Source of the DNA: Bacillota bacterium
Lineage (GTDB): Bacteria > Bacillota > Negativicutes > Sporomusales > CTSoil-080
Assembly (NCBI GenBank): GCA_017889635.1
Contig: JAGGAC010000014.1
Coordinates: 62,001 to 126,000, forward strand
Direction of reading: 5' to 3'
DNA: 64,000 nucleotides
Shown here: positions 8,647-10,138 of the stretch, piece by piece
Numbering within the stretch: the first letter of the stretch is position 1
Layout of the letters: every line of letters begins with the position of its first letter
Made by a program: the position numbers and the translations under genes
The notes under the pieces: model-generated
Told to the model about the DNA's origin: nothing
Databases searched by the model: none
The model's input: only the letters and a program-made list of their open reading frames with translations

Positions 8647-8737
8647 TGGCGGAGTGGCAGGGATTTGAACCCTGGCAGGGATTGCTCCCTCTAACGATTT
8701 AGCAAACCGTCCTCTTCAGCCACTTGAGTACCACTCC
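8647..8737 (-). tRNA. tRNA-Ser(GCU)
   Basis: A class II tRNA with a long variable arm. The acceptor arms GGAGTGG and CCACTCC pair, the discriminator is G and the CCA end is encoded. The anticodon loop reads TTTGCTAAA, giving anticodon GCU for AGC/AGU codons. The T-arm contains GGTTCAAATCC. It is the second gene of a two-tRNA serine transcript. Confidence 0.96.
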
Positions 8738-8755
8738 GTAGTTACCATGACAGAA

Positions 8756-8844
8756 TGGCGGAGGGGGTGGGATTCGAACCCACGGTCCCTTGCAGGATCA
8801 CTGGTTTTCAAGACCAGCTCCTTAAACCACTCGGACACCCCTCC
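8756..8844 (-). tRNA. tRNA-Ser(UGA)
   Basis: A class II serine tRNA with acceptor arm GGAGGGG/CCCCTCC, discriminator G and encoded CCA. The anticodon stem-loop CTGGTCTTGAAAACCAG gives anticodon UGA. The T-arm holds GGTTCGAATCC. It lies 18 bases upstream of tRNA-Ser(GCU) and shares its promoter and terminator. Confidence 0.96.
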
Positions 8845-8862
8845 GTGTCCGGCACATTTTGT

Positions 8863-8892
8863 ATTATAGCAAATTAGCGCATGACTTGTCAA
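8863..8892 (-). promoter_or_regulatory. Promoter of the tRNA-Ser pair
   Basis: On the minus strand a perfect TTGACA (8892-8887) and a perfect TATAAT (8868-8863) are separated by 18 bases. Transcription would begin about ten bases before tRNA-Ser(UGA). Confidence 0.8.
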
Positions 8893-8985
8893 TAAAAAAC
8901 GTTATGGCAAATTTGACAATTACTGCAATAAGTTTTCGACAACAATTAGACCAATAAGAATAATATAGAGTACTACAAGAATCGG

Positions 8986-9014
8986 TTGACTAGTATGCCC
9001 TTCGGCGGTATAGT
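8986..9014 (+). promoter_or_regulatory. Promoter of corA
   Basis: TTGACT (8986-8991) and TATAGT (9009-9014) are separated by 17 bases. Initiation near 9021 would give a leader of about 170 bases before corA, which carries the leader peptide and hairpin described at 9055-9190. Confidence 0.7.
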
Positions 9015-9054
9015 GTTAATATAACAGGCGTAAATACTAAGGCTGGTGAGGAAT

Positions 9055-9147
9055 ATGGACATAGACCGACCTAGGTTAACTAAATTATCGTTTTTCGGAA
9101 AATATGGGAGAATATCTCTATTTCTCACTGGCACTAACATGCCTTAG
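9055..9147 (+). CDS. Candidate 30-residue leader peptide upstream of corA
   Basis: A 30-codon reading frame (ATG 9055, TAG 9145-9147) lies wholly in the corA leader. The peptide begins MDIDRPRLTKL and ends TGTNMP. A GGTGAGG sequence sits just before the ATG, though its spacing is short. The frame ends 43 bases before the corA ATG and covers the segment 9107-9115, which is complementary to the 5' arm of the hairpin that hides the corA ribosome binding site. This is the layout of a translational attenuator. Salmonella corA and mgtA have leader peptides of comparable role, but no homology is claimed. It could also be chance. Confidence 0.4.
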   Translation: MDIDRPRLTKLSFFGKYGRISLFLTGTNMP

Positions 9148-9190
9148 CTGAAAAATAGCATATTCTCCAAGAATACGGAGGAAATATGCT
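9107..9190 (+). promoter_or_regulatory. Hairpin over the corA ribosome binding site with a competing 5' segment
   Basis: AGCATATT-CTCC (9157-9168) pairs with GGAG-AATATGCT (9177-9180 and 9183-9190), with a two-base GA bulge on the 3' arm. This buries the GGAGG site (9177-9181) immediately before the corA ATG. Upstream, GGAGAATAT at 9107-9115 is a perfect 9-base complement of ATATTCTCC at 9160-9168. It could therefore compete for the same arm and free the site. The pairings are read directly; the regulatory role and the signal are inference. Confidence 0.6.
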
Positions 9191-10138
9191 ATGCTTAATA
9201 TCTACAAAAGCAACTGTGATCAGATAATAGAACTAACGTCATCAAATATCGAAAAAGGCGCTTGGATCAACCTAATTAACCCTACCCAGGACGAATTAAA
9301 TAACGTAGCGCTTATAACCGGTGCCCCCATGGACCATCTTAAAAGTGCGTTAGATGAAGAAGAGCGCTCCCATACCGAGATTGAAACCAACTCCATGCTC
9401 ATCATCACTAACATTCCTATCTTGCGTGGCACAGACAGTTACGATACCCTGCCGCTCGGTATCATAATGATGAAGGATTATATCATTACCGTCTGTCTGG
9501 AAAAACACCAAGTTCTCTCCGAATTTACCCTCGAAAGTCACCGGCCAGTCAGTACCTTCAAAAAAACGCGTTTCTTATTCCAGATTCTTAATAAATCAGC
9601 TACATTATATCTGAAATACCTTAAACAAATCAACCGACGAACAGATGAAATCGAACACGATCTGCGCCAATCAATGAAAAACGAGGAAATGTTCCAGCTT
9701 CTTGAACTACAGAAAGGCCTTACTTATTTTACCGCGTCCCTACGCTCCAATGGCATCGTTCTTGAAAAACTCCTTCGGCTACGTTCTAACATTCAACTGC
9801 AGCATCTTATAACCATGTACGAAGAAGACGAAGATCTGTTAGAAGATGTCATCATTGAGAATAAACAGGCCATTGAAATGGTTGAAATGTACAGCAATAT
9901 TCTCAGTAGCATGATGGATGCCTTTGCTTCAATCATTTCCAACAACCTCAATATTGTCATGAAATTTCTTGCCTCAATAACCATTATTCTTGCCATCCCT
10001 ACCATGATAGCAAGCTTTTGGGGAATGAATGTCGATGTCCCGTTAGGCAATAGCGGTGGCTTTCTAAGCGTTTTTTTGATTGCTGCTGCTGCAACAGGTC
10101 TCAGCGCCTTCGGCTTGTGGCGAAAAGGAATGTTATAA
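9191..10138 (+). CDS. corA: CorA-family magnesium/divalent cation transporter
   Basis: A 315-residue inner-membrane channel protein of the CorA (2-TM-GxN) family, which passively imports Mg2+ (sometimes Co2+ or Ni2+) as a homopentamer. The large N-terminal cytoplasmic domain contains the family motifs WINLINPTQDEL and a long helical stretch. The C-terminus has two membrane helices with the selectivity motif GMN (SFWGMNVDVP). The length is typical. The ATG at 9191 follows a GGAGG site held in a hairpin, so expression is probably controlled at translation. It is the only plus-strand gene in this part of the window and ends at a bidirectional terminator shared with livM. Confidence 0.95.
   Translation: MLNIYKSNCDQIIELTSSNIEKGAWINLINPTQDELNNVALITGAPMDHLKSALDEEERSHTEIETNSMLIITNIPILRGTDSYDTLPLGIIMMKDYIITVCLEKHQVLSEFTLESHRPVSTFKKTRFLFQILNKSATLYLKYLKQINRRTDEIEHDLRQSMKNEEMFQLLELQKGLTYFTASLRSNGIVLEKLLRLRSNIQLQHLITMYEEDEDLLEDVIIENKQAIEMVEMYSNILSSMMDAFASIISNNLNIVMKFLASITIILAIPTMIASFWGMNVDVPLGNSGGFLSVFLIAAAATGLSAFGLWRKGML

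Follow-up and report, generated by a model that had tools for sequence, protein, structure and literature searches.

In E. coli and Salmonella, leader peptides are known to control the genes mgtA, mgtB and corA. In ermC-type attenuators, a four-segment RNA is governed by the position of a ribosome in a leader frame, which decides whether the RBS is exposed; there the antibiotic-stalled ribosome is the signal, and the peptide is unrelated to that of the corA leader described here. In Salmonella mgtQ-mgtB, mutagenesis assigned pairing of segments 1:2 and 3:4 to the off state and pairing of segments 2:3 to the on state, and Asp2 and Glu5 of the MgtQ peptide were required experimentally (PMC8092293). 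The mgtQ frame, of 8 codons, is part of the mgtCBR operon, and the transporter under its control is a P-type ATPase. In E. coli MgtL, ribosomes drop off at the EPDP motif at low Mg2+ (PMC11282234). The E. coli corA and mgtA leaders work through Rho; corL, the E. coli corA leader, has a UUG start and fewer acidic and Pro residues and is Rho-dependent (PMC11552253).

The corA leader examined here lies in a 64,000-nucleotide stretch of Bacillota DNA, the whole of which is called the window. It resembles mgtQ-mgtB in its mutually exclusive 1:2/3:4 and 2:3 helices, in a segment 4 that contains the transporter RBS, and in a short leader frame whose early codons include acidic residues and which has a Pro. 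Translation of mgtQ is inversely related to transporter expression, and by analogy the same relation is proposed here. The two differ in that the corA leader frame has about 30 codons, a putative promoter of its own, segment 2 inside the frame and a segment 1 formed by the leader SD and start; the genes controlled by such leaders in Bacillota would be corA or mgtE. With MgtL, the leader of mgtA in E. coli and Salmonella, it shares a position before a Mg2+ transporter gene and the presence of acidic and Pro residues among its first codons. The N-terminal acidic and Pro motif of MgtL-type leaders is conserved at the peptide level, and the downstream gene is a Mg2+ transporter by family membership. 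mgtL operates by Rho-dependent transcription termination, whereas the sequence of the corA leader points to RBS sequestration. Like corL of Salmonella and E. coli, the frame lies 5' of corA and its translation would be inversely related to corA expression; corL is set apart from it by description (start codon, residues, Rho). The M-box (RF00380) is likewise a cis-regulatory RNA of Mg2+ genes in Bacillota, but it senses by an aptamer, whereas the corA leader would sense by the ribosome, and no M-box match was found at corA.

The corA leader in the window

The features of the locus, all on the plus strand, are as follows.

8986-9014, plus strand: promoter-like site from a consensus scan, function putative (TTGACT at 8986-8991, 17-nt spacer, TATAGT at 9009-9014)
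9037-9060, plus strand: segment 1, the leader SD and start region, predicted to pair with segment 2
9045-9051, plus strand: leader-frame Shine-Dalgarno GGTGAGG, with GGTG invariant in a 28-leader alignment
9055-9147, plus strand: leader ORF of 30 codons, ATG at 9055, TAG at 9145-9147, peptide MDIDRPRLTKLSFFGKYGRISLFLTGTNMP
9106-9133, plus strand: segment 2 (anti-anti-SD), within the leader ORF from its nt 52, core GGAGAATAT at 9107-9115
9141-9169, plus strand: segment 3 (anti-SD), core AGCATATTCTCC at 9157-9168, predicted partner of either segment 2 or segment 4, the two pairings being mutually exclusive
9176-9196, plus strand: segment 4, the corA SD (GGAGG, 9177-9181) and start (start codon 9191-9193)
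9191-10138, plus strand: corA, a 315-aa CorA-family transporter with a GMN motif (PF01544, E=7.3e-49)

Among PDB sequences, CorA is matched best by entries 4cy4 and 4ev6, which bear the name magnesium transport protein CorA. Because its score is below the cut-off of TIGR00383, NCBI's strict CorA equivalog for curated Mg/Co-CorA, Mg2+ as its substrate is a reasonable inference from family membership and the PDB matches. Two tRNA genes lie just 5' of corA on the minus strand (window 8650-8844), and tRNA genes are close 5' of CorA in most of 20 relatives scanned.

Transcription is expected to start at about 9021 from the promoter-like site, and a TTGACTA...TATA box occurs at a similar distance 5' of the leader in many relatives. 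The leader ORF opens with MDIDRP, which places its acidic and Pro residues in codons 2-6. Three features had been described in the initial annotation: a leader frame of 30 codons (9055-9147), a hairpin that hides the corA SD (9177-9181) behind a 5' arm at 9157-9168, and nine bases at 9107-9115 perfectly complementary to 9160-9168. Each of these was found in place, and the frame has its own SD. Read directly, 9107-9115 (GGAGAATAT) agrees at every base with the reverse complement of 9160-9168 (ATATTCTCC). The 2:3 duplex has a predicted energy of -23.4 kcal/mol and was equalled in 0/300 shuffles; the 3:4 duplex has -17.2 kcal/mol (p=0.007). What the annotation had missed is segment 1; its description of segments 2, 3 and 4 stands and becomes part of a four-segment switch. 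The 1:2 duplex (-22.9 kcal/mol, p=0.003) has a core of 9040-9060 with 9114-9136 and an extension of CTAAGGC (9037-9043) with GCCTTAG (9141-9147).

The 210-nt leader as a whole has an MFE of -51.3 kcal/mol (z = -4.16 vs 200 shuffles). As a background control, the pairing test was applied to the window's own 53 SD-preceded genes, corA included, and only corA had both the 2:3 and the 3:4 pairings at p<0.05. No intrinsic terminator was found between the leader and corA. A multicopy or mobile element was considered and rejected, the leader being present once in the genome.

No Rfam family matched the corA leader at gathering or permissive thresholds. The M-box is absent from the window, and at a permissive threshold it is absent from 8850-9300. 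The sole M-box of the genome is on another contig (C122:7518-7640, minus strand, 68 bits), between TerC-like and NRAMP-like genes. The organism probably has two different Mg2+ read-outs, the M-box and the corA leader.

Conservation and pairing of the leader in relatives

No orthologous CorA is present in the only two other genomes of the same family (G001 and G002), which makes the order the closest level for comparison. CorA orthologs are present in 331/380 Negativicutes genomes. The initial annotation had named absence of the frame or the complementary segment from close relatives as the result that would overturn its reading; a leader frame of about 30 codons was instead found in 52 of the 77 Negativicutes CorA upstream regions that were read. 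These 52 frames begin with MD-x-D-x-P-S, MDDHP or a close variant, although the extraction is partly circular, as it required GA directly after the start codon and Pro among the first residues, with five leaders added by hand. Of the 52 leaders, 49 keep this frame open over 28 codons or more; for the other two frames the counts are 3 and 2.

For this reason, 379 genomes were also searched with a profile of 28 leaders, which applied no start or Pro rule. It matched 125/379 genomes, usually with one copy per genome. All of the 30 best matches lie just 5' of CorA, as do 19/20 further matches, weaker or unlisted, whose neighbours were fetched. One match (L149, E=0.005) was rejected as a CorA leader since it has no CorA downstream. 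In each of the 19 further CorA leaders the second residue is acidic and the fifth or sixth is Pro; examples are MDTDYPS, MEGDGPS, VDADGPH and MDGDHPN.

The residues conserved are an acidic codon 2, an acidic codon 3 or 4 and one Pro. Codon 5 is variable (R, H, I, L, P, Q, Y or G), and codon changes are tolerated, the acidic codon 2 being GAT, GAC or GAG and the Pro CCT, CCG, CCC or CCA. That the pattern survives codon and residue changes argues, at the level of sequence, that the leader peptide itself matters. The motif is incomplete in some leaders: several of the Sporomusa type begin MDVG, and L018, L019 and L021 have no early Pro.

Three further observations concern single leaders or short stretches. 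Outside Negativicutes, the CorA leader of G580 and G627 reads LDGDGSYGG; it lacks Pro and seems to start at a CTG, and the corA may have been acquired horizontally and its leader have decayed. In the L068 and L077 leaders there is no stop before corA and the frame runs across the corA start; completing the frame would therefore cover the corA RBS directly. CCTAGT lies at window 9070-9075 (codons 6-7), CCT AGT/AGR recurs in most CorA leaders and CCT AGT in several MgtE leaders, and CCTAGT is conserved beyond the need of the peptide.

Pairing was then scored leader by leader. The 2:3 pairing has p<0.05 in 44/52 leaders, the 1:2 pairing in 42/52 and the 3:4 pairing in 24/52. Segment 2 starts at nt 48-56 of the ORF in most leaders and, judged from this position, is far enough 3' to stay free with a ribosome at codons 2-6.

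The covarying pairs that the initial annotation proposed to look for in relatives were examined in two ways. RNAalifold on the leader-core alignment gave no consensus pair because the pairing register slides between leaders. For this reason an alignment-free test was used, in which segment partners from the same genome were compared with mismatched partners from other genomes (n=37). Own partners paired better at 1:2 (-18.0 vs -15.0 kcal/mol, z -7.4), 2:3 (-21.4 vs -15.0 kcal/mol, z -10.9) and 3:4 (-17.4 vs -13.5 kcal/mol, z -8.5), each with p<=0.00005. Among the decoys, the own-partner advantage was not significant for 2:4, 1:4 or the upstream ORF with segment 3, and was marginal for 1:3. The result was unchanged with 25 family or genus representatives. 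These comparisons strongly support a four-segment leader architecture, and the logic of a translational attenuator put forward in the initial annotation gains support from coevolving pairings across the 52 CorA leaders.

Acidic/Pro leaders before MgtE in other Bacillota

MgtE is unrelated to CorA but has the same cargo, Mg2+. A phylum-wide profile scan found one genome outside the class with a leader, MDSYPPS, 5' of MgtE, and the downstream MgtE was confirmed by Pfam. MgtE upstream regions from the class of that genome carry VDSYPPS, VDSYPPG or VDSYPPC, VEGNPRS, LDGNPCS and MEVIPRS, and DSYPP is maintained through synonymous codons. Several of these leaders have a clear three-way pairing, for example GGGGAGCAG : CTGCTCCCC : GGAGGATGCAGC. 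In 13 MgtE leaders, whose segments were chosen by pairing, own partners were favoured at 2:3 (p<=0.00005) and 3:4 (p<=0.0001). Not every VEGNPRS-type leader passed the pairing test, and the segment rule failed on the shortest leaders.

In other families, a profile of the MgtE leaders found MDPDPGS, VDPDPGS and VDPDPWS 5' of MgtE (L215, L214, L220); its other weak matches had no MgtE nearby. MDPDPGS closely echoes the EPDP of MgtL. In another family, possible frames VDPGSSD and MDPGDIP lie about 260-315 nt 5' of a divergent MgtE (L184, L185).

Because similar leaders precede unrelated transporters with the same cargo, Mg2+ is favoured as the signal. The initial annotation had offered Mg2+ or a specific charged tRNA; the first of these is strengthened, and the second is disfavoured by the conservation of acidic residues and Pro beside a variable codon 5.

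Proposed mechanism, alternatives and possible wider occurrence

We consider it likely that the corA leader is a translational attenuator, one probably responding to low cytosolic Mg2+ via early ribosome abortion. Ribosomes starting on the 30-codon frame would open the 1:2 helix. At low Mg2+ the acidic/Pro stretch MDIDRP would destabilise the ribosome, which would abort or linger at codons 2-6. Segment 2 would then be free to pair with segment 3, segment 4 and the corA SD would be open, and CorA would be made. With sufficient Mg2+, ribosomes would traverse segment 2, so that 3:4 forms and corA is shut. If the leader is not translated, 1:2 and 3:4 would be expected, a default off state. Leader translation, ribosome drop-off, the Mg2+ signal and kinetic formation of 2:3 are the steps that we infer. 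The initial annotation had ribosomes stalling early in the frame; the freeing of segment 2 is retained from that proposal, and abortion of the mgtL/mgtQ kind fits better than codon-specific stalling.

Folding was modelled on RNA ending before segment 4 with a ribosome block. The median number of expected 2:3 pairs was 20 for a ribosome placed at initiation or at codon 5, 8 with none and 0.1 at codon 22, the last value being partly a consequence of blocking segment 2 itself. The geometry agrees from leader to leader. The 2:3 hairpin is predicted to be more stable than 3:4 in 34/39 leaders. In full-length equilibrium folding the corA SD is largely paired with or without an early ribosome. Its openness was greater with an early than a late ribosome in 27/41 leaders (p=0.04), and the leader in the window showed no early-vs-late change in the same folding. 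Since the finished RNA prefers the off state, the on state would have to arise kinetically, during RNA synthesis, or through repeated initiation; other attenuators behave in this way.

Leader translation might alternatively set Rho-dependent termination, as in corL and mgtL, instead of or besides corA translation. The E. coli corA and mgtA leaders are the precedent (PMC11552253). Yet segment 4 holds the corA SD, the 3:4 helix coevolves and no intrinsic terminator separates leader from gene, and we regard this reading as unlikely, though Rho may act in addition.

A charged-tRNA attenuator, in which a stall at codon 5 or 6 (the Pro or the variable codon) frees segment 2, would have identical RNA logic, and hardly any leader lacks the Pro at codon 5-6, for which CCT is the usual codon. 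A single Pro codon would be a weak sensor, however, and there is no run of codons for the same amino acid. The acidic codon 2 and codon 3/4 are equally conserved, codon 5 varies freely, and the genes downstream belong to two Mg2+ transporter families rather than to proline metabolism or uptake. This reading is improbable. We think it just as improbable that the same peptide-dependent abortion or stalling serves another main input, such as an ABC-F protein (EttA), bL31 variants, antibiotics or polyamines. In enterics, EttA and bL31 do alter the acidic-residue-dependent translation of mgtL or mgtQ (PMC11282234, PMC8092293), but factors of this type modulate the known Mg2+ systems and do not substitute for the signal, and the presence of such leaders before both CorA and MgtE suggests that what is controlled is Mg2+ homeostasis. 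A ligand- or metal-binding riboswitch, with the conserved 5' bases as aptamer and the reading frame incidental, would account for the strong fold and the strong nucleotide conservation at GGTGAG...ATGGA and CCTAGT, but is very improbable given the lack of any Rfam match at the leader, an M-box only elsewhere in the genome, the frame held open in 49/52 leaders and an acidic/Pro peptide that survives codon changes.

For attenuation by early ribosome abortion at low Mg2+, no paper on a corA or mgtE leader peptide in Bacillota or Negativicutes was found in the open-licence literature, and neither an Rfam family nor a paper in that literature was found to describe such a Mg2+-transporter leader outside Gammaproteobacteria. 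The working principle is that of mgtQ and mgtL; the origin is apparently independent, the transporters differ, the frame is longer and its own start is segment 1. Convergence with the enteric mgtQ and mgtL is assumed here, given the different length, gene and phylum. Our judgement leans, somewhat less firmly than for the corA leader itself, toward a joint reading in which Mg2+ sensing by ribosome instability is a general strategy and not an enteric one only, used in Bacillota for CorA (in Negativicutes and at least one further lineage) and, with differently worded peptides, for MgtE, with an origin independent of MgtL and MgtQ.

The leaders form a candidate new RNA family for annotation, as no Rfam model matched. 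Their natural variants of a destabilising peptide (MDxDxPS, MDDHPS, VDSYPPS, VEGNPRS, MDPDPGS) would provide a data set on drop-off peptides. If the proposal is true, the mechanism demonstrated in E. coli and Salmonella would be a widespread bacterial ribosome read-out of cytosolic Mg2+, extending to a group that includes gut bacteria and acetogens and on whose Mg2+ regulation no data were found.
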